Shown here: positions 4,400-25,375 of the stretch, piece after piece | How positions within the stretch are numbered: position 1 is the stretch's first letter | Layout: each line of letters opens with the position of its first letter | Assembly (NCBI GenBank): GCA_006247105.1 | Contig: CM016926.1 | Coordinates: forward strand, 1,178,001 to 1,242,000 | Direction: 5' to 3' | DNA from: Giardia muris | Lineage: Eukaryota; Fornicata; Diplomonadida; Hexamitidae | DNA length: 64,000 nt | The notes under the pieces: generated by a model | Seen by the model: the letters and a program-made list of their open reading frames with translations, nothing else | What the model was told of the DNA's origin: nothing | Databases searched by the model: none | Position numbers and translations under genes: made by a program

Positions 4400-4423
4400 G
4401 CTCTACCACTGAGCTAACCCGGC
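4400..4423 (-). pseudogene. 5' fragment of tRNA-Thr at repeat border
   Basis: The first 24 nt of the tRNA-Thr found whole at 25,304-25,375: acceptor 5' strand GCCGGGT, linker TA and the complete D arm (GCTC...GAGC). After that the sequence changes to unrelated DNA (aaatgacctaactgag on the minus strand). No anticodon arm, T arm or acceptor 3' strand follows, so it cannot give a tRNA. The A-box part of the internal pol III promoter survives. The cut coincides exactly with the end of the inverted repeat. Confidence 0.88.
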
Positions 4424-4437
4424 CCGGCGAAGTGAAA

Positions 4438-5658
4438 ATGCATATCTTCGGGATGCACGATAGACGAGACTGGTTCACGGCGGTCGAGACGAAGGACTAC
4501 GAGCGGGTGGCGGTTCTTCAGCGGCGTTTCCAAACGTCTAGAGACGCGGCAGGCGATACAGCTCTGATCATCGCCGTTCGGAATAACGATCTCAAGCTGA
4601 TTGGAATGCTCGCCGCTGCAGAGGCAGGAATCCGAGGGGCAGACGGAAAGACTGCATGCGCACTTGCGATCGATAATGATAGCCTCAGGGCGTTTCATCT
4701 TCTCCAACCATTTGAACTTCCTGAAAGTGTCCCTTCCGGAACTGCCTGCTCTCTCCCTGTTTCTGAAGAGGTCTACGTACACTTTGCAGCTGCACGGCTC
4801 CGAGTTCTTTATCATGCCCTAACTGCAGGGCTTCTTAGGACAGTCCAGCATGTTGTAGAAAACTCCGCTGCCTGGAATGACGCATACATACGCGCATCAT
4901 TGATGATTGCACTTGTTCATGGGCACCATCACATCGTTGGCTATCTACTCCATCGGGCGATGGACTTGAACTTTCTCAATGGGGTCGATCTCTACCGAGT
5001 AATAGACTGTCCTGATGCAATCGGTTATCCCATCTCAGGGTCCGGGTTTGAAGAGGCAGCGTTATTGCCCATTAAAGACAAGATTGCAGTTCTTAGGCAA
5101 AAGATGACTTCGCTACAAGAGCAATATGTGGCACAGCTTGAATTTGTCCCGACTATGACTTCTCTCAATAAGGATCTTGATCGCTCACACGCACAAGCAG
5201 ACGCTCGGGAATTCGATTCCCTTGCACGTACCCTTCAGGAAGATGTGCAGAAGATCCTGAAAGAGAACGTTGCTCTTCGTAAAGCTATCGAATCAACCAT
5301 GGAAGATGGTACTCAGAGTCTTGTTCAGACATCGGCCGAACTTGTTTCTCTTCGAGAAGAACTAGATCGGAGTATGGAAGAAGTTGCTACTCTTCAAGTG
5401 CGATTGGCTGATTCTCTTCGGGCTACTGAAGGTGTCTCTGCAGACGACTGTGCAGGAATGGATTTGGGAGTGGGTGGAAACAGTGATGCGGTTATTGAGC
5501 TTGGCCGTGAACTTACCCTCGTCCGCAATGAACTGGAGCAGAGAACCCGCGAAGTTAACGAACTTACTACTCAGGTACATAGACTTAAACATGAACTTCG
5601 GCATTATTGCCCACTAGAAGGGCAGATCCGTTGTTTCGATTCGCAGGAACTCATCTAG
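4438..5658 (+). CDS. Ankyrin-repeat / coiled-coil protein (protein 21.1 type), left copy
   Basis: 406 residues from the ATG at 4438. The N-terminal ~100 residues carry ankyrin-type repeats ('AAGDTALIIAVRNNDLKLIG', 'DGKTACALAIDNDSLRAFHL'), and the middle has weaker ankyrin-like helices. Residues ~210-400 are a long heptad-rich coiled coil rich in Glu, Leu and Gln. Giardia has a large family of such ankyrin proteins ('protein 21.1') with scaffold roles and mostly unknown partners. The start lies 14 nt from the 5' end of the truncated tRNA-Thr, in divergent orientation, so its promoter abuts or overlaps tRNA sequence. The stop is 14 nt before the next ATG. Identical copy on the right arm. Confidence 0.82.
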   Translation: MHIFGMHDRRDWFTAVETKDYERVAVLQRRFQTSRDAAGDTALIIAVRNNDLKLIGMLAAAEAGIRGADGKTACALAIDNDSLRAFHLLQPFELPESVPSGTACSLPVSEEVYVHFAAARLRVLYHALTAGLLRTVQHVVENSAAWNDAYIRASLMIALVHGHHHIVGYLLHRAMDLNFLNGVDLYRVIDCPDAIGYPISGSGFEEAALLPIKDKIAVLRQKMTSLQEQYVAQLEFVPTMTSLNKDLDRSHAQADAREFDSLARTLQEDVQKILKENVALRKAIESTMEDGTQSLVQTSAELVSLREELDRSMEEVATLQVRLADSLRATEGVSADDCAGMDLGVGGNSDAVIELGRELTLVRNELEQRTREVNELTTQVHRLKHELRHYCPLEGQIRCFDSQELI

Positions 5659-5672
5659 GCGTACAGAATAAA

Positions 5673-7733
5673 ATGGTCCCGAAAGACTCCATTATCTTCA
5701 CCCCGCTCGGTGCAGGAGAAGAGGTCGGCCGCTCTTGCTTCCTCTTGAGTTTTCAACGTCGAGGGAAGCGTGGTCAAATCATGCTTGACTGTGGCCTTCA
5801 TCCTGGATTGTCGGAGCAGAAGGATGGTTGTGCACAACAGGCTCTCCCCTTTTTTGACGTCCAGAACCTCAACTTGTCACTTATTCTAGTCACACACTTT
5901 CACAATGATCACATTGCAGCTCTTCCTTACTTTGTCAAGTGCTTACGGCAACGGGCTCGCGCAGAGAACCTTCCAGAAGACAAGTACATTCCTCCGATCT
6001 ATATGACATCACCTACACTTACTATCTTTCAAAGCAATGCTACAGACATCGGAACGCAGACACGTCTATATGATGAAAAGGACGTATCGTATCTCTCAAG
6101 TAAGGTGACTCCTCTGAGTAGCTTCTACGAGACCAAGACTGTCAATAGCATCACATTCACAGTTCTTCCTGCTGGACATGTCATAGGAGCCGCAATGTTC
6201 CTCATCAATATTGACGGTTACCAGATCCTCTACACGGGAGATTTCAGTTGCGAGCCTGAAGATCGCCATCTGCATCCAGCCGCGTTCAAAGCTTTGCCAA
6301 CTCGTCTCGATATGCTCATCATTGAGGCAACATATGGGTCAATGACACATACACCCCGTTCAATTCGTGAGACAGAGTTCATTTCAGAGATTGTTGATAC
6401 ACTCAAGAAAGAAGGTCGTGTTCTTTTGCCTGTGTTCACAATAGGAAGGGTTCAAGAACTTCTTCTGATCCTCAGTGAGCACTGGCAGAAGCATCCAGAT
6501 CTTAAGCACTTCCCAATTTACTATATCTCCTCTAGTGCAAAGTCTGCAGAGAACCTCTATGTTGAAGACGTTGGATTCCTGCGTGACCGACATCAACAGA
6601 GTCATGCCTTTGTTAAACGGACGACAAGCGAGCGGAGCATTGGACCACGACCTTGTGTTGTCTTTTGCACTCCTGCAATGCTTCAGGCTGGAGCATCACG
6701 AGCCCTTTTTGAAGAGTGGTGCTCCCGAGATAGTAATCTTCTGTTGGTGACAGGATATGCGACACCTGGCACGCTTCTCTACCGATTACTTGAGGAGAAT
6801 CCACCAGAGCGTATTATGACATCAGCTGGTTTAGCTACAGAACGACGGATCCGGATCAAGAATATCTCTTTCTCAGCTCACTCGGACTTCGCTCAAACAA
6901 GCAGCGTTATTCAGGAGATGAATCCACGAGACGTAGTCTTCATCCATGGGAGCTACAAAAGCATGGAATCCATGCGAAAAGGTATTTTGACGCAATTCCC
7001 AGATAGTTTGACCATTCCCGAAGGGACTCCCGTTCCAGAGGTAGACGATCACCGAGTTCGCTTTCATTACCCCGCAAATGGACAGAGTATTGTCTTCCCC
7101 TTCACGCGCCCAGTTATCGTAGGTTTGAGTCTTGAAAAGCAAGCACAGTTGACAGAGAATTCTATTCAGCGTTTGTATCTCTCACAGAATGGATTTTCAT
7201 GTACAGCCTATGATCTGAAGGGCTTTCAAGCTGCACACAGAGGCCGGTTGAACTCATTAAAACTCACACTCAAAGTTACATGTATGTTCACAGCAGAAGA
7301 GCTTCAAGTCCTCCTATCTGGACATGAATATACTGTGGCACTAGAGGAGGATCGAATTCGTGTTAATTGCCAGCAAGCAGTTGTAGACCTTATACTAGCA
7401 GATCGGCAAATCATGACAACTTTCGAGCTTTATAGTGCAGAAGCCTGTCTACATCTTCGCATCCTCCTTTTGATCCTCAACACACCGGCATCAACTCTAA
7501 AGAAATATTCGGTCGAGAAGATCTTAGATAAGGTGGGTCGAGCTTTCGGGTTTTCATTCGTTGGTGATATGCTCACTATTGGTCAGGAAACACTCCACAT
7601 AGACACGCAACAATGGGAGTTTATAACCATCCCACCAGGTTTACCATACCTGGTCCGTCAGAGACTTCGGGATACCTGTGACTGTGCACGTGCCCTTGCT
7701 AGCTCATGGTTCTCAGACCATATACCTGCGTAG
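5673..7733 (+). CDS. CPSF73-like mRNA 3'-end endonuclease, left copy
   Basis: 686 residues from ATG 5673, which follows gaataaa. It is a metallo-beta-lactamase/beta-CASP nuclease. The zinc motif HFHNDH is at residues 75-80; 'PAGHVIGAAMF', 'LYTGDFS' and 'ISFSAHSDF' are the further motifs of the family. Segment by segment it follows CPSF73, the enzyme that cuts pre-mRNA at the polyadenylation site ('LIIEATYGS', 'LLPVFTIGRVQELLLIL'). The related Int11 is the main alternative. The C-terminal ~220 residues match the weakly conserved CPSF73 tail. Function in the nucleus is inferred; Giardia mRNAs are polyadenylated shortly after AGTRAA signals. An earlier ATG at 5607 overlaps the preceding gene and is rejected. 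Confidence 0.9.
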   Translation: MVPKDSIIFTPLGAGEEVGRSCFLLSFQRRGKRGQIMLDCGLHPGLSEQKDGCAQQALPFFDVQNLNLSLILVTHFHNDHIAALPYFVKCLRQRARAENLPEDKYIPPIYMTSPTLTIFQSNATDIGTQTRLYDEKDVSYLSSKVTPLSSFYETKTVNSITFTVLPAGHVIGAAMFLINIDGYQILYTGDFSCEPEDRHLHPAAFKALPTRLDMLIIEATYGSMTHTPRSIRETEFISEIVDTLKKEGRVLLPVFTIGRVQELLLILSEHWQKHPDLKHFPIYYISSSAKSAENLYVEDVGFLRDRHQQSHAFVKRTTSERSIGPRPCVVFCTPAMLQAGASRALFEEWCSRDSNLLLVTGYATPGTLLYRLLEENPPERIMTSAGLATERRIRIKNISFSAHSDFAQTSSVIQEMNPRDVVFIHGSYKSMESMRKGILTQFPDSLTIPEGTPVPEVDDHRVRFHYPANGQSIVFPFTRPVIVGLSLEKQAQLTENSIQRLYLSQNGFSCTAYDLKGFQAAHRGRLNSLKLTLKVTCMFTAEELQVLLSGHEYTVALEEDRIRVNCQQAVVDLILADRQIMTTFELYSAEACLHLRILLLILNTPASTLKKYSVEKILDKVGRAFGFSFVGDMLTIGQETLHIDTQQWEFITIPPGLPYLVRQRLRDTCDCARALASSWFSDHIPA

Positions 7734-7859
7734 TTAATTATTCATGAGAAGCTGTACTGATGTACCCTCTGGTTGATCGAATGTTCCTGCGTCTGATGTG
7801 CAGATTTGAGGCAGTGTCTTATAGTCTCTATCTCAAGTAAACGTCACTTGACGAACAAA

Positions 7860-9089
7860 ATGCCTTTCACCAAGCTCTCCATCTCCGATGTTGATCTCAA
7901 CGGTAAACGCGTCTTCATCCGCACGGACTACAATGTCCCGCTGGATAAGGAGGGCAAGATCACTAACACGGCCCGCATTGATGCTTCCATCCCTACACTG
8001 AAGTACTGCCTTGAGCATGGTGCAAAGGCGCTTGTCATTGCTTCTCACCTCGGCCGTCCCAAGGGGACGGGTCCCGAGAAGGAGTTCTCTCTTGCTCCAG
8101 TTGCCATTGCCCTTCAGGACATCCTCGGAAAGCCTGTCACTCTTCTGTCAGACTGTGTTGGCCCAGAGGTTGAGAGCAAGTGTGCCGATCCGGCTCCTGG
8201 TAGCGTGATCCTTCTTGAGAACTTGCGCTTCCACAAGGAGGAGACGAATGAGGACGAGTCGAATCCAGACGTTAAGAAGTTTCGTGCCTCACTTGCCAAG
8301 CTCGCTGATATCTACTGTTCGGATGCTTTCGGAACAGCGCACCGTCCTCACTCCTCAATGGTTGGTGAGGGCTACGATATCCGCTGTGCCGGTTTCCTCA
8401 TGCAGAAGGAGCTCGACTACTTCAACATTGCACTGTCTGATCCCAAGAGGCCATATCTCGCCATTCTGGGTGGTGCGAAGGTTGCAGACAAGATCAAGTT
8501 GATCAAAAACCTGATCCCGAAGGTCAACCGTTTGATCATCTGCGGTGGGATGGCGTATACATTTCTCAAGGTCCTCAAGAACATGAAGATCGAGAAATCT
8601 CTCTTCGATGAAGCGGGTTCTAAGACGGTTCCCGAGCTTATGGAGCTGGCGAAGAACCACAACGTCGAGATTATCTTCCCCACTGACTTTGTTGCAGCAT
8701 CGGACTTTAGGGAGGATGCGGAGACGAAGGTCGTCACTCTTGTTGAAGGCATTCCTGATGGCTGGATGGGTCTTGACTGTGGCCCCGATTCCTGCAAGGT
8801 CTTTTCGAATGCAATTATGACCAGCAAGACGATCATTTGGAATGGTCCAGCTGGGGTCTTTGAGATGCCTGCCTTTGCTAAGGGTACGCTTTCGATGGTT
8901 GAAGATGTTGTTAAAGCCACTGAAGCGGGAGCGGTTACGATCATTGGTGGTGGAGACTCAGCAACTGCAGCCAAGAAGGCAGGTGCGACGAAGAAGATCT
9001 CACACGTCAGCACAGGCGGAGGCGCGTCTCTTGAGCTCCTCCAGGGCGATCCACTTCCAGGCGTCGTTCGCCTCTCGGACAAGAAGTAA
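7860..9089 (+). CDS. Phosphoglycerate kinase, left copy
   Basis: 409 residues, the normal length of the family. The enzyme transfers phosphate from 1,3-bisphosphoglycerate to ADP in glycolysis, a main ATP source in this mitochondrion-less cell. Motifs: 'RTDYNVPLD' (substrate basic patch), 'SHLGRPKG', 'LLENLRFHKEE', 'IWNGPAGVFEMPAFAKGT' and 'IGGGDSATA' (nucleotide site). The start is the ATG after gaacaaa; an in-frame ATG-like extension from 7806 lacks similarity to the family. Codon use is G/C-ending and even, as for a highly expressed gene. The stop TAA overlaps an AGTGAA polyadenylation motif. An identical copy lies on the other arm, so gene dose is doubled if the repeat is real. Confidence 0.97.
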   Translation: MPFTKLSISDVDLNGKRVFIRTDYNVPLDKEGKITNTARIDASIPTLKYCLEHGAKALVIASHLGRPKGTGPEKEFSLAPVAIALQDILGKPVTLLSDCVGPEVESKCADPAPGSVILLENLRFHKEETNEDESNPDVKKFRASLAKLADIYCSDAFGTAHRPHSSMVGEGYDIRCAGFLMQKELDYFNIALSDPKRPYLAILGGAKVADKIKLIKNLIPKVNRLIICGGMAYTFLKVLKNMKIEKSLFDEAGSKTVPELMELAKNHNVEIIFPTDFVAASDFREDAETKVVTLVEGIPDGWMGLDCGPDSCKVFSNAIMTSKTIIWNGPAGVFEMPAFAKGTLSMVEDVVKATEAGAVTIIGGGDSATAAKKAGATKKISHVSTGGGASLELLQGDPLPGVVRLSDKK

Positions 9090-9094
9090 GTGAA
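9089..9094 (+). terminator. AGTGAA polyadenylation signal (PGK, left)
   Basis: AGTGAA begins at the last base of the TAA stop. AGTRAA is the established Giardia polyadenylation motif. Confidence 0.7.
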
Positions 9095-9737
9095 GAATCG
9101 GGATTCTTACGGTCCTGCCCGCACTCTTAACGAAATACCGAACCCTCCCCCTGCGAAAGTTCAGCACCCAGCTTTCCCACGGAGTCTCCCGCCGCAGTAC
9201 TCACAGGGCCCGCGCCGGCTTCTCTTGCGAATTCGGAACGAGCTCGCGAGTTGCCCGGCGGGTGTGGCCGAACTGGGGGCAGCAGTCGGGAAAGCCGGGC
9301 GGGAGCATCAACCGGAGGGGGGCGCTTCTCTGTGACCTCCCCGAGCTGCAAGAGGGAGATTAAGATTGATCTCGAGAACGCTTTAACAATATGGAGAGGA
9401 GGGTACGTCCCTTCCTTCCCCATACAAACTGGCTGGAAGAGACACTATTAGACATTTGAGGTACAGGAACCTCCAGGATCACGAGCCGTCCTCTCCCCAA
9501 AGTTCCTTCCGACTGAATGAGTCAGCCTGTATGAGTAAAAAGGTCTCGATCAGTACATCGAGAAGAGACTGCAGGCCTTCCTGTCTTCGGGGAGAGGCGG
9601 AGGTCGTCTCATTCCAATAACAGGGGCCGCATACTGTGGCCCATTTCTCGCTAGTAATAGCGTCCTTGTGGACGGGATCAGAACAAGGCGAGTGTCAGAG
9701 GGTCAGAGAGAGGAGTTAATGGCTAACGAACAAAAAG
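9095..9737. other. Intergenic stretch without recognised gene, left
   Basis: About 640 bases between PGK and the ankyrin-kinase gene. It is G+C-rich in its first half, with short open frames that resemble nothing I know and no tRNA fold. The last bases before the next gene, taacgaacaaaaag, form the A-rich initiator. For this compact genome the gap is large. Confidence 0.6.
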
Positions 9738-11522
9738 ATGTCCTTCACTGAATTGATGAAGGCGGTCAAGAGTGGGGACCTCGAGAGCGTGAAGGCCAAC
9801 CTTGGAGATGCAGGGAAGAAGGACGAGTATGGTCAGACGGCCCTGATATACGCTACAAAGTGGAATCATGCCAATTGCATCCCTCTCCTAGAGAATGAGA
9901 TCGGGATGCAAGACAACGATGGATTGACCGCACTGATGTATGCCGCCTACAATGGCAATGCAGACTGCGCCCGCCTTCTTCTCTCCGAGGCCGGAAAACA
10001 GGCAACGAAGAATAGTGAGTTCACTTTGAATGGCAAAGCAGTTACCTTCCCTCCTGGAACAACAGCTCTCATCCTCGCGGCCCACTTCAACCACCCCGAG
10101 ATCGTTGAGCTCCTCCTCCCCTATGAACAGGGAATGGAAGATTCCAAGGGATATACTGCTCAATGGTACACAAATAACGGTGATTTAGGTGAGGACGACT
10201 TCACTAGTGTTTGTGAGCTCCTCAAGAATGAGGGAACGGAAAGAATTCATCCACCATCGAATCTTGGTGAGGTGCTTAGACTCCAGGAGCACCTTAGCAA
10301 ACTCACAACTGAGAATGAGACCCTCAAAATGGAACTTGCAGACCAGAAGGCCCAGAATCTCGCCCTCGAGAAGGAGATTGCTCGACTGAGAGAGGAGTCT
10401 CTCATATCATCTGCCATCCGAGGAGACATCGAAGGTATCCGAAGACGCCTCAGTCAGGTGAAGTGGCATGATGCCTCAGGCATGACAGCCCTGATGCACG
10501 CCGCCTCCCGAGGCCAGACCGAGGTCGTCCGCCTCCTCCGGCCCCTCGAGGCCCGCCTCCAGGACGGGAGGGGATGGACGGCCCTGATGCATGCAGTGGG
10601 GGGAGGACACGAGGAGTGCGCCGGCCTCCTCCTTCTGGAGAGGGACCTGAAGGACGGGGAGGGCAGGACGGCAGCCGAACACGCGGTAGATGAGAAGATG
10701 CGACAGGTGCTCATGCACCAGCCCTCGTTTCCGAGGCTCCCAGACAGCCTCTCGGGATACCACCTGACCGCTGTGCTCGGAAAAGGAGCCTTCGGAGCTG
10801 TCTATACGGCACATGGAAATGGCCAGAACGTGGCGGTCAAGGTCATCGATCTTGGAAAATACAATGAGAAGGGGCGGGAACTGCTTCGCAGAGAGGCGGA
10901 GATACTCCTCTCCCTTGACCATCCGAACATCCTCCAGTGCCTCGGGACAGGGGAGAACGACGATGATGATACATACATCATTGTGACAGAACTCTGCTGT
11001 GGGGATCTCCGTGGGGAGATGAAGGAACGGAAGAAGACAGGACGTTCCTACACCAATCAGGAAGTATGGAAGATGGTTCGAGAGATGGCAGCCGCCCTCG
11101 TGTACCTCCATAGGAAGAGGCACGTCCACAGAGACCTGAAGCCCGAAAATATTTTCATCACCTCGAACGGTCGATGTGTCTTGGGGGACTTCGGACTTAC
11201 AAAGGTACTTGAGGACTCATCTCAGATGGGTACATGTGTGGGGACCCTTGCATATATGGCCCCTGAGATCCACCGGAAGGAAAGCTACGATAAGTCTGTA
11301 GACGTCTGGGCCTTGGGAGTGGCAGCGTACGAGATGTGCACCGGAGATCGTCCGTTCAAAGATCCGGCAGTAATCCTTGAAAAGAAGCCCGCTCCTCCTC
11401 TTAGGGGTCGTCCTTCAGAACTTGCTGATCTCATCGCCTGGATGCTCTCAAAGAATCCCAAAGATCGTCCAACAGCACAAGAGGTCATCAAGGAGGCAGA
11501 ACGGAACAAGCAGGCGGACTGA
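9738..11522 (+). CDS. Ankyrin-coiled coil-ankyrin-protein kinase (NEK-like), left copy
   Basis: 594 residues. Residues 1-190 hold ankyrin repeats ('YGQTALIYATKWNHANCIPL', 'DGLTALMYAAYNGNADCARL'). A coiled coil (~190-230) follows, then a second ankyrin block (~250-325), and a C-terminal protein kinase domain from ~338. The kinase looks active: glycine loop from G348 (GKGAFGAV), VAVK lysine K368, HRDLKPEN with D466, DFG with D484, APE and 'DVWALGV'. The kinase resembles the NEK family, greatly expanded in Giardia, where many members are predicted inactive and the kinase usually comes first. Here the order is reversed. The N-terminal ankyrin module is related to that of the broken ankyrin-RING gene in the spacer. 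Identical copy on the right arm. Confidence 0.88.
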   Translation: MSFTELMKAVKSGDLESVKANLGDAGKKDEYGQTALIYATKWNHANCIPLLENEIGMQDNDGLTALMYAAYNGNADCARLLLSEAGKQATKNSEFTLNGKAVTFPPGTTALILAAHFNHPEIVELLLPYEQGMEDSKGYTAQWYTNNGDLGEDDFTSVCELLKNEGTERIHPPSNLGEVLRLQEHLSKLTTENETLKMELADQKAQNLALEKEIARLREESLISSAIRGDIEGIRRRLSQVKWHDASGMTALMHAASRGQTEVVRLLRPLEARLQDGRGWTALMHAVGGGHEECAGLLLLERDLKDGEGRTAAEHAVDEKMRQVLMHQPSFPRLPDSLSGYHLTAVLGKGAFGAVYTAHGNGQNVAVKVIDLGKYNEKGRELLRREAEILLSLDHPNILQCLGTGENDDDDTYIIVTELCCGDLRGEMKERKKTGRSYTNQEVWKMVREMAAALVYLHRKRHVHRDLKPENIFITSNGRCVLGDFGLTKVLEDSSQMGTCVGTLAYMAPEIHRKESYDKSVDVWALGVAAYEMCTGDRPFKDPAVILEKKPAPPLRGRPSELADLIAWMLSKNPKDRPTAQEVIKEAERNKQAD

Positions 11523-12463
11523 CGTGTTGAAGACACGAACCCCGATCCTCAGGCCGGTCCTGACGCAGCAGTCTCACAGTTGGGCATGCAGGGGTGCTCA
11601 CATGTGTCTCCCCCTGTTCCAGTGAGTCAGTGGTCCTTCCTCTCCATCCTCGAACTGGTGGAACTCACGTCTCCCGATATCCCGCGGACCAGCAACTCTC
11701 GACCCTTTCAGTGAAGTAACACTTGTTTTTCGAGCTACTCTCATCAGCAAATGGGGGGAGACCAAGCAGCGGCCTCAGGACCACTGGGACCCGAGGAGGA
11801 TGTGTCATCGAACTCTCAGTATTAGGACCACCTCAAGTGTAAGTCCCAGCTTGCAGACCAGCAGAAATCTCCAGGTCCTCGTTGATGATGTCCCCGGGGG
11901 CCTTCGGAGCTGAGCTCCTGAGGTATCAAGACAGCAAAAGGAAAAATCGTTTTCGGGCTTGCAGGAGTCTGGGAAGGTCCGGGACAGTGATATGTTGCTC
12001 CGGAGGCTGTAAAACGAAGAGAGGGGTCCAGATGTATTGGTGATTGATGAGGTCCATGGAATTGCTTCGGCATGGCGGTACCATAGCCTCTGCTCAGTGG
12101 GACTCCTCGGCCAAGACCCACCATCGAAGATGTCTTTCATCAACAAGAGATTGGGCTCATACGGCAGCTCCCTTCAGGGACGAGGGAGTCTCAAGACTCG
12201 TGCAGTCGAGGCGGCTGGCAGGGGTGGTCTCCTCTGTCCGAAGCCTCTGAGTGAACACGTCTGTCGACAACCCCGAGACCGCCAGATGCGGGATGTTCCT
12301 CCCCTCCAAGAGTCCTCCATCTTAGGTTTCGTGACTTCTCGAATAACTTCAGGAATGGAAGGCCCAGCACCTTCTGGCTCCCCACCATCCATCTTTTAAT
12401 AAGAAGGCACCAACTTTTTCGCGAAATATTTTTGAAGGGGCGATCAGCTTCAAAAAACTAGTG
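11523..12463. other. Long intergenic stretch with possible kinase relic, left
   Basis: About 940 bases with no convincing gene. The 13 bases gccttcggagctg at 11,900-11,912 repeat the glycine-loop codons of the upstream kinase (10,788-10,800), and some frames carry vague kinase-like words, so a heavily decayed kinase copy is possible but unproved. The last ~50 bases turn A/T-rich (gcgaaatatttttgaagg, then caaaaaactagtg) and form the likely VSP promoter/initiator. Confidence 0.45.
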
Positions 12464-14035
12464 ATGTTAGTTACTGTAGGGCTTTTAATTAGCGTTGCCG
12501 TTGCAGTTCACGTCGAGGCCAAATCTCGAGCAACTCCTACTCCTGGAGCCTGCAGTCCTGCCATCGCGGACTGTACAGAAGGCAAGTGCCTAAAGATCGG
12601 GAGCACGCAGGTCTGCACAGTATGTGCCAGCACCCACGCTCCGATCAACGGGACCTGCGTAGCAGCAGCTGATGCTGAAGCGAAAGGGTGTAAGACCTCG
12701 GGCGACGCTACGCCAGACGCTGGTGTATGCGGGAAGTGCGGAGCCAACTACGTCCTCTTCCAGGGCGGCTGCTACCATGTCAACTCGACTAGTCCCATCT
12801 GCACGGCAACGGATCCCACTGACACCTTCAAGTGCACGACGTGCGGAGACGGACTGATTCCAAACACAGCTGCAACTGCGACGACCGAAACCTGCGACCT
12901 CTGCGACTCGACCTGCAAGACATGCGAGGCGAAAGAGGACTCCACGAAGTGCAAAACTTGCTATAGTGGTACACCCACAAATGGCGCATGTCCCTCAACC
13001 CCGGCTTCTACGTGCAGTGTTGAGAACTGCAAGACGTGCGTCACTGACAAGACGAACGAGTGTGAGACCTGCAACGATGGTTATTACGTCAATTCCAAGA
13101 AGACCTGCACGCAGTGCTCTGCGGACTGCAAGAGCTGTGCCGATTTTGGCCTCGGGGTCGTCTGCACCGCCTGCAACAACGGGAAGGTCCCGGTCGATGG
13201 AAAGTGCGTTGACTCGAATACAAAGGTTTGCACCGAGCCAACGGCCTCCGACGGCACATGCATCTCCTGCAAGAACGGGTACATGCTCTACCAGAAAGGC
13301 TGCATCTCCTCCTACAAGGCGAACGCGATGGGTCTCTGTGCCAACAGCAACCAGTTCCTCGTCGGGGAGGCCCTCGTCTGCAAGGAGTGCAATGCCGGGT
13401 TCGTCCCGATTGATGGGACCTGCACTGAGCTCGGGTCGACTCTCTCGAGGGCGACCATCAACGACGCCTGCAAGAAGGCCGACGGGACGACCGCCGTTGA
13501 TGCGAAGGCCACGAAGTGCGAGAACTGCTCGACCGTTGGGAGCGTCAGCTACTTCCTCTTCGAGGGCGGGTGCTATCCTGCAGACTCGACCCCCGGGACT
13601 TCGGTCGGAAGCACTCTCTGCTCAGCAGTCACTGATGGGAAGTGCTCTACTGCTGCCACCAACTCCCCCTTCCCTCTCGCCAATGGCGTCTTCACCCTCT
13701 GCCCGGCTGGATGCAAGAGGTGCTCCATCCCAGCTGGAAGCACAGACCCCACCTGCGATGAATGTGCCCTCGGATACTTCAACTCGGCCTCTAGTGGTAC
13801 CACCTGCACTGCATGTCCGACTGGCTGCACGGTCTGCACCGATGCGACCACCTGCACGACCTGCTGGAATGGAAACAGCCCCGACGCCAGTGGGAAGTGT
13901 CCCGATCCCCCCTCCTACTCCAGTTCTTCGGGGCTCTCGGGGGGCGCCATTGCGGGAATCGTCATTGCCGTCCTTCTGGTGCTGGGAGGTCTCGGGGGCT
14001 TCCTCGGTTGGTGGTTCGGATGCAGGGGGAAGTGA
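12464..14035 (+). CDS. Variant-specific surface protein (VSP), left copy
   Basis: 523 residues from the ATG at 12,464; a GTG just before it is in frame. Signal peptide: 'MLVTVGLLISVAVAVHVEA'. The ectodomain is Thr/Ser/Gly-rich with 19 CXXC motifs by my count, several followed by the GY/NG-type loops typical of VSPs. Near the C-terminus lie a hydrophobic helix ('GGAIAGIVIAVLLVLGGLGG') and the cytoplasmic tail CRGK, the VSP hallmark. VSPs coat the trophozoite, and one is expressed at a time, controlled post-transcriptionally. The stop overlaps an AGTGAA motif. The gene ends 8 bp before the repeat's inner border and faces its twin tail to tail across the spacer. Confidence 0.96.
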   Translation: MLVTVGLLISVAVAVHVEAKSRATPTPGACSPAIADCTEGKCLKIGSTQVCTVCASTHAPINGTCVAAADAEAKGCKTSGDATPDAGVCGKCGANYVLFQGGCYHVNSTSPICTATDPTDTFKCTTCGDGLIPNTAATATTETCDLCDSTCKTCEAKEDSTKCKTCYSGTPTNGACPSTPASTCSVENCKTCVTDKTNECETCNDGYYVNSKKTCTQCSADCKSCADFGLGVVCTACNNGKVPVDGKCVDSNTKVCTEPTASDGTCISCKNGYMLYQKGCISSYKANAMGLCANSNQFLVGEALVCKECNAGFVPIDGTCTELGSTLSRATINDACKKADGTTAVDAKATKCENCSTVGSVSYFLFEGGCYPADSTPGTSVGSTLCSAVTDGKCSTAATNSPFPLANGVFTLCPAGCKRCSIPAGSTDPTCDECALGYFNSASSGTTCTACPTGCTVCTDATTCTTCWNGNSPDASGKCPDPPSYSSSSGLSGGAIAGIVIAVLLVLGGLGGFLGWWFGCRGK

Positions 14036-14040
14036 GTGAA
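14035..14040 (+). terminator. AGTGAA polyadenylation signal (VSP, left)
   Basis: AGTGAA begins on the last base of the TGA stop of the VSP, the classical arrangement for Giardia VSP genes. Confidence 0.75.
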
Positions 14041-15683: not shown

Positions 15684-15686
15684 CCA

Positions 15687-17263: not shown

Positions 17264-18204
17264 CACTAGTTTTTTGAAGCTGATCGCCCCTTCAAAAATA
17301 TTTCGCGAAAAAGTTGGTGCCTTCTTATTAAAAGATGGATGGTGGGGAGCCAGAAGGTGCTGGGCCTTCCATTCCTGAAGTTATTCGAGAAGTCACGAAA
17401 CCTAAGATGGAGGACTCTTGGAGGGGAGGAACATCCCGCATCTGGCGGTCTCGGGGTTGTCGACAGACGTGTTCACTCAGAGGCTTCGGACAGAGGAGAC
17501 CACCCCTGCCAGCCGCCTCGACTGCACGAGTCTTGAGACTCCCTCGTCCCTGAAGGGAGCTGCCGTATGAGCCCAATCTCTTGTTGATGAAAGACATCTT
17601 CGATGGTGGGTCTTGGCCGAGGAGTCCCACTGAGCAGAGGCTATGGTACCGCCATGCCGAAGCAATTCCATGGACCTCATCAATCACCAATACATCTGGA
17701 CCCCTCTCTTCGTTTTACAGCCTCCGGAGCAACATATCACTGTCCCGGACCTTCCCAGACTCCTGCAAGCCCGAAAACGATTTTTCCTTTTGCTGTCTTG
17801 ATACCTCAGGAGCTCAGCTCCGAAGGCCCCCGGGGACATCATCAACGAGGACCTGGAGATTTCTGCTGGTCTGCAAGCTGGGACTTACACTTGAGGTGGT
17901 CCTAATACTGAGAGTTCGATGACACATCCTCCTCGGGTCCCAGTGGTCCTGAGGCCGCTGCTTGGTCTCCCCCCATTTGCTGATGAGAGTAGCTCGAAAA
18001 ACAAGTGTTACTTCACTGAAAGGGTCGAGAGTTGCTGGTCCGCGGGATATCGGGAGACGTGAGTTCCACCAGTTCGAGGATGGAGAGGAAGGACCACTGA
18101 CTCACTGGAACAGGGGGAGACACATGTGAGCACCCCTGCATGCCCAACTGTGAGACTGCTGCGTCAGGACCGGCCTGAGGATCGGGGTTCGTGTCTTCAA
18201 CACG
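17264..18204. other. Long intergenic stretch, right copy
   Basis: Mirror of 11,523-12,463: A/T-rich VSP promoter area at the 17,264-17,320 end, then about 880 bases without a recognised gene, including the 13-base match to kinase glycine-loop codons at 17,815-17,827. Confidence 0.45.
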
Positions 18205-19989
18205 TCAGTCCGCCTGCTTGTTCCGTTCTGCCTCCTTGATGACCTCTTGTGCTGTTGGACGATCTTTGGGATTCTTTGAGAGCATCCAGGCGATGAGATC
18301 AGCAAGTTCTGAAGGACGACCCCTAAGAGGAGGAGCGGGCTTCTTTTCAAGGATTACTGCCGGATCTTTGAACGGACGATCTCCGGTGCACATCTCGTAC
18401 GCTGCCACTCCCAAGGCCCAGACGTCTACAGACTTATCGTAGCTTTCCTTCCGGTGGATCTCAGGGGCCATATATGCAAGGGTCCCCACACATGTACCCA
18501 TCTGAGATGAGTCCTCAAGTACCTTTGTAAGTCCGAAGTCCCCCAAGACACATCGACCGTTCGAGGTGATGAAAATATTTTCGGGCTTCAGGTCTCTGTG
18601 GACGTGCCTCTTCCTATGGAGGTACACGAGGGCGGCTGCCATCTCTCGAACCATCTTCCATACTTCCTGATTGGTGTAGGAACGTCCTGTCTTCTTCCGT
18701 TCCTTCATCTCCCCACGGAGATCCCCACAGCAGAGTTCTGTCACAATGATGTATGTATCATCATCGTCGTTCTCCCCTGTCCCGAGGCACTGGAGGATGT
18801 TCGGATGGTCAAGGGAGAGGAGTATCTCCGCCTCTCTGCGAAGCAGTTCCCGCCCCTTCTCATTGTATTTTCCAAGATCGATGACCTTGACCGCCACGTT
18901 CTGGCCATTTCCATGTGCCGTATAGACAGCTCCGAAGGCTCCTTTTCCGAGCACAGCGGTCAGGTGGTATCCCGAGAGGCTGTCTGGGAGCCTCGGAAAC
19001 GAGGGCTGGTGCATGAGCACCTGTCGCATCTTCTCATCTACCGCGTGTTCGGCTGCCGTCCTGCCCTCCCCGTCCTTCAGGTCCCTCTCCAGAAGGAGGA
19101 GGCCGGCGCACTCCTCGTGTCCTCCCCCCACTGCATGCATCAGGGCCGTCCATCCCCTCCCGTCCTGGAGGCGGGCCTCGAGGGGCCGGAGGAGGCGGAC
19201 GACCTCGGTCTGGCCTCGGGAGGCGGCGTGCATCAGGGCTGTCATGCCTGAGGCATCATGCCACTTCACCTGACTGAGGCGTCTTCGGATACCTTCGATG
19301 TCTCCTCGGATGGCAGATGATATGAGAGACTCCTCTCTCAGTCGAGCAATCTCCTTCTCGAGGGCGAGATTCTGGGCCTTCTGGTCTGCAAGTTCCATTT
19401 TGAGGGTCTCATTCTCAGTTGTGAGTTTGCTAAGGTGCTCCTGGAGTCTAAGCACCTCACCAAGATTCGATGGTGGATGAATTCTTTCCGTTCCCTCATT
19501 CTTGAGGAGCTCACAAACACTAGTGAAGTCGTCCTCACCTAAATCACCGTTATTTGTGTACCATTGAGCAGTATATCCCTTGGAATCTTCCATTCCCTGT
19601 TCATAGGGGAGGAGGAGCTCAACGATCTCGGGGTGGTTGAAGTGGGCCGCGAGGATGAGAGCTGTTGTTCCAGGAGGGAAGGTAACTGCTTTGCCATTCA
19701 AAGTGAACTCACTATTCTTCGTTGCCTGTTTTCCGGCCTCGGAGAGAAGAAGGCGGGCGCAGTCTGCATTGCCATTGTAGGCGGCATACATCAGTGCGGT
19801 CAATCCATCGTTGTCTTGCATCCCGATCTCATTCTCTAGGAGAGGGATGCAATTGGCATGATTCCACTTTGTAGCGTATATCAGGGCCGTCTGACCATAC
19901 TCGTCCTTCTTCCCTGCATCTCCAAGGTTGGCCTTCACGCTCTCGAGGTCCCCACTCTTGACCGCCTTCATCAATTCAGTGAAGGACAT
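18205..19989 (-). CDS. Ankyrin-coiled coil-ankyrin-protein kinase (NEK-like), right copy
   Basis: Identical 594-residue partner of the gene at 9,738-11,522: two ankyrin blocks split by a coiled coil, and a C-terminal kinase with intact K368, D466 and D484. The identity extends through the flanking non-coding DNA, which shows that the copies arose by segmental duplication rather than by retention of selected coding sequence. Substrate and partners are unknown; ankyrin repeats in Giardia NEKs are thought to target them to cytoskeletal structures. Confidence 0.88.
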   Translation of the reverse strand: MSFTELMKAVKSGDLESVKANLGDAGKKDEYGQTALIYATKWNHANCIPLLENEIGMQDNDGLTALMYAAYNGNADCARLLLSEAGKQATKNSEFTLNGKAVTFPPGTTALILAAHFNHPEIVELLLPYEQGMEDSKGYTAQWYTNNGDLGEDDFTSVCELLKNEGTERIHPPSNLGEVLRLQEHLSKLTTENETLKMELADQKAQNLALEKEIARLREESLISSAIRGDIEGIRRRLSQVKWHDASGMTALMHAASRGQTEVVRLLRPLEARLQDGRGWTALMHAVGGGHEECAGLLLLERDLKDGEGRTAAEHAVDEKMRQVLMHQPSFPRLPDSLSGYHLTAVLGKGAFGAVYTAHGNGQNVAVKVIDLGKYNEKGRELLRREAEILLSLDHPNILQCLGTGENDDDDTYIIVTELCCGDLRGEMKERKKTGRSYTNQEVWKMVREMAAALVYLHRKRHVHRDLKPENIFITSNGRCVLGDFGLTKVLEDSSQMGTCVGTLAYMAPEIHRKESYDKSVDVWALGVAAYEMCTGDRPFKDPAVILEKKPAPPLRGRPSELADLIAWMLSKNPKDRPTAQEVIKEAERNKQAD

Positions 19990-20632
19990 CTTTTTGTTCG
20001 TTAGCCATTAACTCCTCTCTCTGACCCTCTGACACTCGCCTTGTTCTGATCCCGTCCACAAGGACGCTATTACTAGCGAGAAATGGGCCACAGTATGCGG
20101 CCCCTGTTATTGGAATGAGACGACCTCCGCCTCTCCCCGAAGACAGGAAGGCCTGCAGTCTCTTCTCGATGTACTGATCGAGACCTTTTTACTCATACAG
20201 GCTGACTCATTCAGTCGGAAGGAACTTTGGGGAGAGGACGGCTCGTGATCCTGGAGGTTCCTGTACCTCAAATGTCTAATAGTGTCTCTTCCAGCCAGTT
20301 TGTATGGGGAAGGAAGGGACGTACCCTCCTCTCCATATTGTTAAAGCGTTCTCGAGATCAATCTTAATCTCCCTCTTGCAGCTCGGGGAGGTCACAGAGA
20401 AGCGCCCCCCTCCGGTTGATGCTCCCGCCCGGCTTTCCCGACTGCTGCCCCCAGTTCGGCCACACCCGCCGGGCAACTCGCGAGCTCGTTCCGAATTCGC
20501 AAGAGAAGCCGGCGCGGGCCCTGTGAGTACTGCGGCGGGAGACTCCGTGGGAAAGCTGGGTGCTGAACTTTCGCAGGGGGAGGGTTCGGTATTTCGTTAA
20601 GAGTGCGGGCAGGACCGTAAGAATCCCGATTC
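19990..20632. other. Intergenic stretch without recognised gene, right
   Basis: Mirror of 9,095-9,737. A-rich initiator (ctttttgttcgtta on the plus strand) beside the kinase start; nothing else recognised. Confidence 0.55.
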
Positions 20633-20638
20633 TTCACT
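20633..20638 (-). terminator. AGTGAA polyadenylation signal (PGK, right)
   Basis: Mirror of 9,089-9,094; overlaps the TAA stop of the right PGK gene. Confidence 0.7.
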
Positions 20639-21867
20639 TACTTCTTGTCCGAGAGGCGAACGACGCCTGGAAGTGGATCGCCCTGGAGGAGCTCAAGAGA
20701 CGCGCCTCCGCCTGTGCTGACGTGTGAGATCTTCTTCGTCGCACCTGCCTTCTTGGCTGCAGTTGCTGAGTCTCCACCACCAATGATCGTAACCGCTCCC
20801 GCTTCAGTGGCTTTAACAACATCTTCAACCATCGAAAGCGTACCCTTAGCAAAGGCAGGCATCTCAAAGACCCCAGCTGGACCATTCCAAATGATCGTCT
20901 TGCTGGTCATAATTGCATTCGAAAAGACCTTGCAGGAATCGGGGCCACAGTCAAGACCCATCCAGCCATCAGGAATGCCTTCAACAAGAGTGACGACCTT
21001 CGTCTCCGCATCCTCCCTAAAGTCCGATGCTGCAACAAAGTCAGTGGGGAAGATAATCTCGACGTTGTGGTTCTTCGCCAGCTCCATAAGCTCGGGAACC
21101 GTCTTAGAACCCGCTTCATCGAAGAGAGATTTCTCGATCTTCATGTTCTTGAGGACCTTGAGAAATGTATACGCCATCCCACCGCAGATGATCAAACGGT
21201 TGACCTTCGGGATCAGGTTTTTGATCAACTTGATCTTGTCTGCAACCTTCGCACCACCCAGAATGGCGAGATATGGCCTCTTGGGATCAGACAGTGCAAT
21301 GTTGAAGTAGTCGAGCTCCTTCTGCATGAGGAAACCGGCACAGCGGATATCGTAGCCCTCACCAACCATTGAGGAGTGAGGACGGTGCGCTGTTCCGAAA
21401 GCATCCGAACAGTAGATATCAGCGAGCTTGGCAAGTGAGGCACGAAACTTCTTAACGTCTGGATTCGACTCGTCCTCATTCGTCTCCTCCTTGTGGAAGC
21501 GCAAGTTCTCAAGAAGGATCACGCTACCAGGAGCCGGATCGGCACACTTGCTCTCAACCTCTGGGCCAACACAGTCTGACAGAAGAGTGACAGGCTTTCC
21601 GAGGATGTCCTGAAGGGCAATGGCAACTGGAGCAAGAGAGAACTCCTTCTCGGGACCCGTCCCCTTGGGACGGCCGAGGTGAGAAGCAATGACAAGCGCC
21701 TTTGCACCATGCTCAAGGCAGTACTTCAGTGTAGGGATGGAAGCATCAATGCGGGCCGTGTTAGTGATCTTGCCCTCCTTATCCAGCGGGACATTGTAGT
21801 CCGTGCGGATGAAGACGCGTTTACCGTTGAGATCAACATCGGAGATGGAGAGCTTGGTGAAAGGCAT
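20638..21867 (-). CDS. Phosphoglycerate kinase, right copy
   Basis: Identical 409-residue phosphoglycerate kinase with all family motifs intact (see 7,860-9,089 for residues). It keeps the same promoter-side sequence (gaacaaa before the ATG) and the same polyadenylation motif, so both copies should be expressed alike. A second identical gene for a central glycolytic enzyme is unexpected in a streamlined genome, and makes this locus a good place to test the duplication by read depth. Confidence 0.96.
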   Translation of the reverse strand: MPFTKLSISDVDLNGKRVFIRTDYNVPLDKEGKITNTARIDASIPTLKYCLEHGAKALVIASHLGRPKGTGPEKEFSLAPVAIALQDILGKPVTLLSDCVGPEVESKCADPAPGSVILLENLRFHKEETNEDESNPDVKKFRASLAKLADIYCSDAFGTAHRPHSSMVGEGYDIRCAGFLMQKELDYFNIALSDPKRPYLAILGGAKVADKIKLIKNLIPKVNRLIICGGMAYTFLKVLKNMKIEKSLFDEAGSKTVPELMELAKNHNVEIIFPTDFVAASDFREDAETKVVTLVEGIPDGWMGLDCGPDSCKVFSNAIMTSKTIIWNGPAGVFEMPAFAKGTLSMVEDVVKATEAGAVTIIGGGDSATAAKKAGATKKISHVSTGGGASLELLQGDPLPGVVRLSDKK

Positions 21868-21993
21868 TTTGTTCGTCAAGTGACGTTTACTTGAGATAGA
21901 GACTATAAGACACTGCCTCAAATCTGCACATCAGACGCAGGAACATTCGATCAACCAGAGGGTACATCAGTACAGCTTCTCATGAATAATTAA

Positions 21994-24054
21994 CTACGCA
22001 GGTATATGGTCTGAGAACCATGAGCTAGCAAGGGCACGTGCACAGTCACAGGTATCCCGAAGTCTCTGACGGACCAGGTATGGTAAACCTGGTGGGATGG
22101 TTATAAACTCCCATTGTTGCGTGTCTATGTGGAGTGTTTCCTGACCAATAGTGAGCATATCACCAACGAATGAAAACCCGAAAGCTCGACCCACCTTATC
22201 TAAGATCTTCTCGACCGAATATTTCTTTAGAGTTGATGCCGGTGTGTTGAGGATCAAAAGGAGGATGCGAAGATGTAGACAGGCTTCTGCACTATAAAGC
22301 TCGAAAGTTGTCATGATTTGCCGATCTGCTAGTATAAGGTCTACAACTGCTTGCTGGCAATTAACACGAATTCGATCCTCCTCTAGTGCCACAGTATATT
22401 CATGTCCAGATAGGAGGACTTGAAGCTCTTCTGCTGTGAACATACATGTAACTTTGAGTGTGAGTTTTAATGAGTTCAACCGGCCTCTGTGTGCAGCTTG
22501 AAAGCCCTTCAGATCATAGGCTGTACATGAAAATCCATTCTGTGAGAGATACAAACGCTGAATAGAATTCTCTGTCAACTGTGCTTGCTTTTCAAGACTC
22601 AAACCTACGATAACTGGGCGCGTGAAGGGGAAGACAATACTCTGTCCATTTGCGGGGTAATGAAAGCGAACTCGGTGATCGTCTACCTCTGGAACGGGAG
22701 TCCCTTCGGGAATGGTCAAACTATCTGGGAATTGCGTCAAAATACCTTTTCGCATGGATTCCATGCTTTTGTAGCTCCCATGGATGAAGACTACGTCTCG
22801 TGGATTCATCTCCTGAATAACGCTGCTTGTTTGAGCGAAGTCCGAGTGAGCTGAGAAAGAGATATTCTTGATCCGGATCCGTCGTTCTGTAGCTAAACCA
22901 GCTGATGTCATAATACGCTCTGGTGGATTCTCCTCAAGTAATCGGTAGAGAAGCGTGCCAGGTGTCGCATATCCTGTCACCAACAGAAGATTACTATCTC
23001 GGGAGCACCACTCTTCAAAAAGGGCTCGTGATGCTCCAGCCTGAAGCATTGCAGGAGTGCAAAAGACAACACAAGGTCGTGGTCCAATGCTCCGCTCGCT
23101 TGTCGTCCGTTTAACAAAGGCATGACTCTGTTGATGTCGGTCACGCAGGAATCCAACGTCTTCAACATAGAGGTTCTCTGCAGACTTTGCACTAGAGGAG
23201 ATATAGTAAATTGGGAAGTGCTTAAGATCTGGATGCTTCTGCCAGTGCTCACTGAGGATCAGAAGAAGTTCTTGAACCCTTCCTATTGTGAACACAGGCA
23301 AAAGAACACGACCTTCTTTCTTGAGTGTATCAACAATCTCTGAAATGAACTCTGTCTCACGAATTGAACGGGGTGTATGTGTCATTGACCCATATGTTGC
23401 CTCAATGATGAGCATATCGAGACGAGTTGGCAAAGCTTTGAACGCGGCTGGATGCAGATGGCGATCTTCAGGCTCGCAACTGAAATCTCCCGTGTAGAGG
23501 ATCTGGTAACCGTCAATATTGATGAGGAACATTGCGGCTCCTATGACATGTCCAGCAGGAAGAACTGTGAATGTGATGCTATTGACAGTCTTGGTCTCGT
23601 AGAAGCTACTCAGAGGAGTCACCTTACTTGAGAGATACGATACGTCCTTTTCATCATATAGACGTGTCTGCGTTCCGATGTCTGTAGCATTGCTTTGAAA
23701 GATAGTAAGTGTAGGTGATGTCATATAGATCGGAGGAATGTACTTGTCTTCTGGAAGGTTCTCTGCGCGAGCCCGTTGCCGTAAGCACTTGACAAAGTAA
23801 GGAAGAGCTGCAATGTGATCATTGTGAAAGTGTGTGACTAGAATAAGTGACAAGTTGAGGTTCTGGACGTCAAAAAAGGGGAGAGCCTGTTGTGCACAAC
23901 CATCCTTCTGCTCCGACAATCCAGGATGAAGGCCACAGTCAAGCATGATTTGACCACGCTTCCCTCGACGTTGAAAACTCAAGAGGAAGCAAGAGCGGCC
24001 GACCTCTTCTCCTGCACCGAGCGGGGTGAAGATAATGGAGTCTTTCGGGACCAT
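21994..24054 (-). CDS. CPSF73-like mRNA 3'-end endonuclease, right copy
   Basis: Identical 686-residue metallo-beta-lactamase/beta-CASP nuclease with HxHxDH at residues 75-80. The ATG at 24,054 is 14 nt from the stop of the ankyrin gene upstream on the same strand. Normally a single-copy essential component of the cleavage and polyadenylation complex; the extra copy comes from the palindrome rather than from independent duplication. Confidence 0.9.
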   Translation of the reverse strand: MVPKDSIIFTPLGAGEEVGRSCFLLSFQRRGKRGQIMLDCGLHPGLSEQKDGCAQQALPFFDVQNLNLSLILVTHFHNDHIAALPYFVKCLRQRARAENLPEDKYIPPIYMTSPTLTIFQSNATDIGTQTRLYDEKDVSYLSSKVTPLSSFYETKTVNSITFTVLPAGHVIGAAMFLINIDGYQILYTGDFSCEPEDRHLHPAAFKALPTRLDMLIIEATYGSMTHTPRSIRETEFISEIVDTLKKEGRVLLPVFTIGRVQELLLILSEHWQKHPDLKHFPIYYISSSAKSAENLYVEDVGFLRDRHQQSHAFVKRTTSERSIGPRPCVVFCTPAMLQAGASRALFEEWCSRDSNLLLVTGYATPGTLLYRLLEENPPERIMTSAGLATERRIRIKNISFSAHSDFAQTSSVIQEMNPRDVVFIHGSYKSMESMRKGILTQFPDSLTIPEGTPVPEVDDHRVRFHYPANGQSIVFPFTRPVIVGLSLEKQAQLTENSIQRLYLSQNGFSCTAYDLKGFQAAHRGRLNSLKLTLKVTCMFTAEELQVLLSGHEYTVALEEDRIRVNCQQAVVDLILADRQIMTTFELYSAEACLHLRILLLILNTPASTLKKYSVEKILDKVGRAFGFSFVGDMLTIGQETLHIDTQQWEFITIPPGLPYLVRQRLRDTCDCARALASSWFSDHIPA

Positions 24055-24068
24055 TTTATTCTGTACGC

Positions 24069-25289
24069 CTAGATGAGTTCCTGCGAATCGAAACAACGGA
24101 TCTGCCCTTCTAGTGGGCAATAATGCCGAAGTTCATGTTTAAGTCTATGTACCTGAGTAGTAAGTTCGTTAACTTCGCGGGTTCTCTGCTCCAGTTCATT
24201 GCGGACGAGGGTAAGTTCACGGCCAAGCTCAATAACCGCATCACTGTTTCCACCCACTCCCAAATCCATTCCTGCACAGTCGTCTGCAGAGACACCTTCA
24301 GTAGCCCGAAGAGAATCAGCCAATCGCACTTGAAGAGTAGCAACTTCTTCCATACTCCGATCTAGTTCTTCTCGAAGAGAAACAAGTTCGGCCGATGTCT
24401 GAACAAGACTCTGAGTACCATCTTCCATGGTTGATTCGATAGCTTTACGAAGAGCAACGTTCTCTTTCAGGATCTTCTGCACATCTTCCTGAAGGGTACG
24501 TGCAAGGGAATCGAATTCCCGAGCGTCTGCTTGTGCGTGTGAGCGATCAAGATCCTTATTGAGAGAAGTCATAGTCGGGACAAATTCAAGCTGTGCCACA
24601 TATTGCTCTTGTAGCGAAGTCATCTTTTGCCTAAGAACTGCAATCTTGTCTTTAATGGGCAATAACGCTGCCTCTTCAAACCCGGACCCTGAGATGGGAT
24701 AACCGATTGCATCAGGACAGTCTATTACTCGGTAGAGATCGACCCCATTGAGAAAGTTCAAGTCCATCGCCCGATGGAGTAGATAGCCAACGATGTGATG
24801 GTGCCCATGAACAAGTGCAATCATCAATGATGCGCGTATGTATGCGTCATTCCAGGCAGCGGAGTTTTCTACAACATGCTGGACTGTCCTAAGAAGCCCT
24901 GCAGTTAGGGCATGATAAAGAACTCGGAGCCGTGCAGCTGCAAAGTGTACGTAGACCTCTTCAGAAACAGGGAGAGAGCAGGCAGTTCCGGAAGGGACAC
25001 TTTCAGGAAGTTCAAATGGTTGGAGAAGATGAAACGCCCTGAGGCTATCATTATCGATCGCAAGTGCGCATGCAGTCTTTCCGTCTGCCCCTCGGATTCC
25101 TGCCTCTGCAGCGGCGAGCATTCCAATCAGCTTGAGATCGTTATTCCGAACGGCGATGATCAGAGCTGTATCGCCTGCCGCGTCTCTAGACGTTTGGAAA
25201 CGCCGCTGAAGAACCGCCACCCGCTCGTAGTCCTTCGTCTCGACCGCCGTGAACCAGTCTCGTCTATCGTGCATCCCGAAGATATGCAT
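24069..25289 (-). CDS. Ankyrin-repeat / coiled-coil protein (protein 21.1 type), right copy
   Basis: Identical 406-residue ankyrin plus coiled-coil protein. An upstream in-frame ATG at 25,334 would add 15 residues, but they are encoded by the antisense of tRNA-Thr and differ from the left copy, so the start at 25,289 is preferred. Here the divergent neighbour is the complete tRNA-Thr, 14 nt away; in the left copy it is the truncated one. The two copies therefore form a natural comparison of promoter context. Confidence 0.82.
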   Translation of the reverse strand: MHIFGMHDRRDWFTAVETKDYERVAVLQRRFQTSRDAAGDTALIIAVRNNDLKLIGMLAAAEAGIRGADGKTACALAIDNDSLRAFHLLQPFELPESVPSGTACSLPVSEEVYVHFAAARLRVLYHALTAGLLRTVQHVVENSAAWNDAYIRASLMIALVHGHHHIVGYLLHRAMDLNFLNGVDLYRVIDCPDAIGYPISGSGFEEAALLPIKDKIAVLRQKMTSLQEQYVAQLEFVPTMTSLNKDLDRSHAQADAREFDSLARTLQEDVQKILKENVALRKAIESTMEDGTQSLVQTSAELVSLREELDRSMEEVATLQVRLADSLRATEGVSADDCAGMDLGVGGNSDAVIELGRELTLVRNELEQRTREVNELTTQVHRLKHELRHYCPLEGQIRCFDSQELI

Positions 25290-25303
25290 TTTCACTTCGC
25301 CGG
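25290..25303. promoter_or_regulatory. 14-nt divergent gap: ankyrin gene / tRNA-Thr
   Basis: The bases ttcacttcgccg with flanks separate an mRNA start codon from a divergent pol III gene. A pol II initiator for the ankyrin gene must lie here or inside the tRNA gene. Mirrored at 4,424-4,437, where the tRNA is cut. Confidence 0.5.
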
Positions 25304-25375
25304 GCCGGGTTAGCTCAGTGGTAGAGCGAAGCACTCGTAATGCTTAGGTCGTGGGTTCGACTCCCGCACTCGGCT
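25304..25375 (+). tRNA. tRNA-Thr (anticodon CGT)
   Basis: 72-nt cloverleaf that I folded by hand. Acceptor GCCGGGT/ACTCGGC pairs throughout (one G-U), with discriminator T. D arm GCTC/GAGC has a 7-nt loop. Anticodon arm AAGCA/TGCTT has loop CTCGTAA, giving anticodon CGT for codon ACG (threonine). Variable loop AGGTC. T arm GTGGG/CCCGC has loop TTCGACT. No intron; CCA is not encoded. The internal A box (tagctcagtggtagagc) and B box (ggttcgactcc) are good. The large inverted repeat ends at its 24th base. Confidence 0.95.

Follow-up and report, generated by a model that had tools for sequence, protein, structure and literature searches.

How does a stretch of DNA that carries a phosphoglycerate kinase (PGK) gene come to lie twice in the Giardia muris genome, in inverted orientation and without a single difference between the two copies? 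The window, that is the whole stretch of 64,000 nucleotides that was analysed, holds a palindrome (P1) for which the first-pass annotation had proposed two identical 9,644-bp arms around a 1,640-bp centre. Position-by-position comparison of 4400-14043 with the reverse complement of 15684-25327 bears this out, with 0 mismatches over 9,644 positions, and identity is lost at the very next base at the outer and at the inner border of both arms. The gene set that had been assigned to each arm, comprising an ankyrin protein, a CPSF73-like protein, a full PGK, an ankyrin-kinase and a VSP, is confirmed by open reading frames and Pfam matches. Comparison of the window with itself by BLAST (E up to 1e-5, rows of at least 40 bp) gave, besides the arms, just one 73% ankyrin match. 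The arms and their genes are as follows.

4400..14043, + strand: left arm, 9,644 bp, 0 mismatches to the right arm
15684..25327, - strand: right arm, 9,644 bp, 0 mismatches to the left arm
4438..5658, + strand (left) and 24069-25289, - strand (right): ankyrin protein (PF12796, ORFs)
5673..7733, + strand (left) and 21994-24054, - strand (right): CPSF73-like beta-CASP protein (PF10996, PF00753, PF07521, ORFs)
7860..9089, + strand (left) and 20638-21867, - strand (right): PGK (PF00162, 493 bits)
9738..11522, + strand (left) and 18205-19989, - strand (right): ankyrin-kinase (PF00069, PF12796)
12464..14035, + strand: left VSP copy, 523 aa (PF03302, 98 bits), tail GCRGK
15692..17263, - strand: right VSP copy, 523 aa, 100% identical to the left copy

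The VSP pair itself is already known. Table 3 of the G. muris genome paper (Xu et al. 2020, PMC7641422) gives a pair 22301/22304 on chromosome 2, tail-to-tail, coding for 523 aa, 1,656 bp apart and with psi-ARP-2 between the genes; the pair of the window (14035 to 15692) agrees with it in length, orientation and spacing. The paper states GCRGK as the VSP tail of G. muris, and the ankyrin-kinase of the P1 arms is of the NEK type in its usage. The parts of the paper covered here give gene pairs and their spacing without arm lengths, and mention no arms that reach PGK, CPSF73 or a tRNA; its Figure 1 is drawn from BLAST matches over 1 kb and the string 'palindrom' has 0 occurrences in its main text. 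Among the titles and abstract openings found in the open-licence literature none places palindromes at Giardia VSP pairs. As far as the literature covered goes, long palindromes as a family-wide feature around G. muris VSP pairs have not been described.

Genome searches, which covered the 9.74-Mb HGAP/PacBio assembly of project PRJNA524057 with its 52 contigs, find PGK twice, both times inside the P1 arms. The segment 4400-9700 used as a DNA query gives 10 matches, two of which are the arms while the other eight fall on one stretch of about 180 bp (9144-9324). The outer part of the P1 arm is single-copy besides its two arms, at the sensitivity of that search.

The centre of the palindrome and the frame that it holds are located as follows.

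14044..15683, no strand: spacer, psi-ARP-2 segment with copies elsewhere in the genome (psi-ARP-2 as named in Table 3 of PMC7641422)
14130..14744, - strand: frame with a RING finger (PF13920, 36.3 bits, cut-off 27)

The spacer had been taken for unique, which holds within the window alone. It recurs in full at C1:1965667-1967306 (97%), where it is the spacer of another palindrome, and nearly complete at C2:896352-897930 (94%), and the reading of a unique spacer was rejected because of these two copies. A genome search with the spacer gave at least 93 matches, 40 of 154 candidates being scored. Among the spacer copies listed that are longer than 600 bp and at least 83% identical (at least 40), at least 16 start 12-14 bp beyond the codon at which a VSP match ends. 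A single VSP at C2:895168 precedes an almost complete spacer and a second VSP was not found in the 9 kb of C2:890001-899000, so that this VSP with its spacer is a possible half-palindrome; an inverted repeat of 375-393 bp (98-99%) encloses both.

The palindrome of the window might have been a lone oddity, as it first appeared, but it belongs to a family of seven centred on VSP genes. When the two sides of each two-gene inverted pair in Table 3 were compared with each other, all seven such pairs turned out to be the cores of palindromes, with arms of 5,795-11,435 bp that are 99.77-100% identical. These related cores are found on four large contigs, and their orientations all agree with Table 3 (five tail-to-tail, two head-to-head).

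P0, C1:827852-852176: arms of 11,158 bp, 17 mismatches, spacer 2,009 bp, tail-to-tail
P1, the palindrome of the window: arms of 9,644 bp, 0 mismatches, spacer 1,640 bp, tail-to-tail
P2, C1:1956617-1976354: arms of 9,056 bp, 0 mismatches, spacer 1,626 bp, tail-to-tail (BLAST extension to 9,059 bp with one mismatch)
P3, C1:2370209-2386500: arms of 6,575 bp, 15 mismatches, spacer 3,142 bp, tail-to-tail
P4, C2:587240-602995: arms of 5,795 bp, 1 mismatch, spacer 4,166 bp, head-to-head
P5, C4:951115-977033: arms of 11,435 bp, 12 mismatches, spacer 3,049 bp, tail-to-tail
P6, C5:721000-738161: arms of about 6,900 bp, 10 mismatches and 4 gap positions, spacer 3,362 bp, head-to-head

The eighth row of Table 3 corresponds to four VSP copies near C2:2.03-2.07 Mb, inverted and direct, that are 99.2-99.8% identical over 2.8-4.3 kb in the part of the locus covered. 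The repeat of about 180 bp of the P1 arm recurs at the outer border of P4 (C2:587237-587411) and also within the inner arms of P3 (C1:2375579-2375742) and P5 (C4:961343-961516). Just outside both ends of P0 lies a direct repeat of 1,777 bp, 100% identical (C1:825985-827761 and C1:852776-854552), with a gene coding for an EGF-like domain inside.

P1 and P2 have 0 arm differences, so that neither palindrome by itself shows conversion; allelic heterozygosity is just 0.016%. P3 and P5 are carried by different contigs and have VSP, flanks and spacer in common; their spacers are 95-97% identical and their inner borders coincide to the nucleotide. Compared over about 3.7 kb, the arms are 0.19-0.38% different within a locus and 4.5-4.8% different between loci. 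Of the variable sites, 162 distinguish one locus from the other, 21 are singletons, and 0 unite a P3 arm with a P5 arm. Such a comparison applies to these inner sequences, the outer single-copy arms of P1 having no homologous palindrome. A related pattern is found in P0, P1 and P2, whose spacer ends are 96-97% alike while the middle of the P0 spacer reaches just 71-73%, and the inner borders of P0 and P1 are at the same nucleotide. The VSPs of these three palindromes are 68-74% identical between loci and have 0 or 1 differing sites within a locus. VSP sequence has thus been exchanged at these loci, and yet the two arms agree in it. The inner border of P2 is 8 bp further in than that of P1, the bases of one end being found on both sides, and would fit a conversion tract. 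The borders that P0, P1 and P2 share, which coincide with the conserved VSP tail, could be mimicked by independent palindromes formed around one spacer type. GCRRK is the tail of the left VSP of P0; the right copy has a different base at one position only, which lies in this tail (C1 position 838993).

Differences between arms are present in five of the seven palindromes, P1 and P2 being those with none. In P0, P3 and P5, the three palindromes tested, they are clustered (0 of 10,000 shuffles as clustered in each), as conversion tracts might leave them; P1 has no differences, and those of P6 are mostly outside repeated sequence. In the six palindromes with arms of equal length, 40 of the 45 differences are in sequence that recurs among the loci compared, which accounts for 34,834 of their 53,663 arm bases. 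For P6 the figures are 4 of 14 differing positions in such sequence and 10 of 14 outside it, which speaks against import from other loci. No exact donor for the clusters was found among the sequences compared, and the left and the right version resemble other copies to about the same degree. As a source of the arm differences, import from other loci is possible, though the case for it is weak, and consensus calling in repeats can both conceal and create differences.

The outer borders of P1 involve a tRNA gene.

25303..25376, + strand: whole tRNA-Thr (CGT), found by ARAGORN, spanning the right outer border
4400..4424, - strand: tRNA-Thr stub of 25 nt at the left outer border, mirror image of 25303-25327

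Frames of unequal length also cross the borders of other palindromes. In P2 a 934-aa frame runs across the right border and a 434-aa frame across the left; in P6 a 1,630-aa frame runs across the left border and a 362-aa frame across the right; and in P5 a 239-aa frame spans the right border, the left having no frame of at least 110 aa. The three longer frames gave no Pfam match. A gene that is intact on one side is truncated on the other in P1, P2 and P6, and probably in P5, while no cut frame was found at the borders of P0, P3 and P4. Stretches in common between loci are found near the VSPs, the kinases and the spacers; the outermost arm parts are locus-specific except in P4, and there the two arms of any one locus match fully or almost fully. 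The one-sided cuts fit copying from the side with the whole gene to the other side, from which we infer that copying proceeded outward. The idea that tRNA genes form a general border was not supported; of the border loci scanned, the P2 arms alone hold a tRNA gene (Lys), located inside the arm.

We consider it rather probable that P1 is a genuine VSP palindrome, in which copying between the arms homogenises an inverted pair and copying of one flank onto the other lengthens it. The core would be one VSP gene present as an inverted pair around the psi-ARP-2 spacer. Its arms would be kept alike by gene conversion between the inverted repeats, or by break-induced replication templated by the opposite arm. 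Copying that continues past the VSP into single-copy DNA would make the palindrome longer on the opposite side, with duplication of the contents there. In P1 such outward copying would have doubled the kinase, PGK, the CPSF73-like protein and the ankyrin protein; it could stop anywhere, and here would have done so within a tRNA gene. The right side, with the whole tRNA-Thr, would be the template and the left side, with the 25-nt stub, the copy.

The first-pass annotation had named a recent rearrangement, a palindrome maintained by conversion and an assembly fold-back as possible origins. Homogenisation by conversion is the best supported, on the grounds of the family of seven, the P3/P5 comparison, the VSP comparison and the clustered differences; fold-back is unlikely, and a recent event may still account for the outer part of P1. 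The main rival to continuing conversion is that each locus underwent a single recent inverted duplication and that its arms are identical because they are young. The absence of differences in P1 and P2, which is no more than alleles show (0.016%), agrees with this, as do the one-sided cut genes, which fit a single copying event, and the existence of other local perfect inverted repeats. Such an explanation nevertheless needs seven independent young events at VSP pairs, and has to face the same inner borders of P3 and P5 with 162 locus-specific sites against 0 shared and the VSPs that were replaced between loci yet are the same in both arms; on balance we regard it as unlikely. The assembly might also have created the palindromes, by fold-back reads or by a misjoin through repeats. 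The perfect arms are about as long as typical reads of the assembly's platform, and further perfect inverted repeats lie nearby. Against an artefact stand the arm differences present in five of the seven palindromes, the asymmetric spacers of 1.6-4.2 kb, the differing outer flanks and the clustered differences in several palindromes. A fold-back is expected to lack a real spacer and a flank of its own on one side, whereas P1 has an asymmetric 1,640-bp spacer and distinct flanks, the very features that had been held against a simple fold-back read. In G. lamblia, moreover, inverted VSP pairs are reported to have come to light independently, one of them before the genome was sequenced, and an artefact appears improbable.

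RNA-based VSP silencing occurs in Giardia, and a palindrome could be kept for its product, either through doubled gene dosage or through a hairpin RNA made by read-through of tail-to-tail VSPs that would feed this silencing. Five of the seven pairs have the tail-to-tail geometry that a hairpin needs, and the assembly has PGK at P1 only, twice. The two head-to-head pairs are however incapable of giving such a hairpin, and the other palindromes have different genes in their outer arms, which leaves the family unexplained by PGK dosage; selection for a product is the least probable of these explanations, and a very improbable one.

Homogenised VSP palindromes have counterparts in known systems. 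According to the parts of the study covered here, G. lamblia has 14 identical inverted vsp pairs, 10 tail-to-tail and 4 head-to-head, spaced by 2,190-3,847 bp and diverging 139-729 bp from the ORFs (Adam et al. 2010, PMC2996952); for the tail-to-tail pairs these parts state no outer extent, and 2 of the 14 pairs are more than 10 kb from a contig end. Like them, P1 has two 100% identical inverted VSP ORFs and abrupt divergence outside the genes, identity ending 8 bp past the stop codon, while its VSP spacing of 1,656 bp is shorter than their 2.2-3.8 kb. P1 is one of the Giardia inverted identical VSP pairs. Mammalian sex-chromosome palindromes maintained by conversion, the subject of PMC3723533 among other papers, come nearest in how they work; they likewise have arms more than 99% identical around a spacer, genes inside and homogeneity within the locus. 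All seven G. muris palindromes have arms above 99% (99.77-100%) around an asymmetric spacer, and P3 and P5 have arms more alike within the locus than between homologues with the same borders. Sequence comparison supports placing the family among palindromes maintained by conversion, through P3 and P5; the outer arms of P1 may belong there as well. Unlike those of sex chromosomes, the G. muris palindromes are located at antigen genes of a unicellular parasite and have arms of 6-11 kb. A further difference is that the single-copy part of the P1 arm shows no GC rise as a trace of biased conversion (49.1% against 50.8% and 51.1% in the flanks).

A broader and more tentative proposal, possible rather than probable, is that in G. 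muris the loci with a pair of intact VSPs are palindromes that copy themselves. A new VSP sequence would be copied from arm to arm so that both antigens change together, and the palindromes would creep outward, duplicate housekeeping genes and leave a cut gene at the advancing end. If so, antigen variation would drive the dosage of housekeeping genes in a genome that ranks among the most compact of eukaryotes, and these palindromes would be a single-celled counterpart of those of sex chromosomes. The identical inverted vsp pairs of G. lamblia were termed 'an interesting, but cryptic observation' in the section concerned (PMC2996952). Long palindromes with locus-specific outer arms suggest a testable mechanism by which identical pairs may persist while VSPs at different loci diverge. 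PGK and the other arm genes are two-copy loci, to be treated together in genetic or expression studies.

Inverted repeats are also found without a VSP. Two shorter perfect ones lie in the remaining 43,072 bp of the window, and one search there gave just matches of 48 and 72 bp. A perfect inverted repeat of at least 449 bp (window 1-449 and C2:1176890-1177338), with at most 662 bp between its copies, contains a ubiquitin gene (window 189-425). The other, of 709 bp (window 61123-61831 and C2:1249859-1250567, about 10 kb apart), covers the beginning of a frame of 682 aa that has no Pfam match. These two repeats argue against VSP specificity, and the idea that palindromes are confined to VSP loci was not supported. 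The flanks of P3 and P4 gave no inverted repeat over the 11,447 bp scanned, and the roughly 54.5 kb scanned are too small a sample to judge long palindromes elsewhere. Inverted kinase-type matches, with scores equal within each pair, were observed at C5:528745-529758 and C5:558908-559921, where they flank the internal VSP array of that contig, and at C2:1831161-1832342 and C2:1834618-1835799; both pairs are possibly further palindromes.
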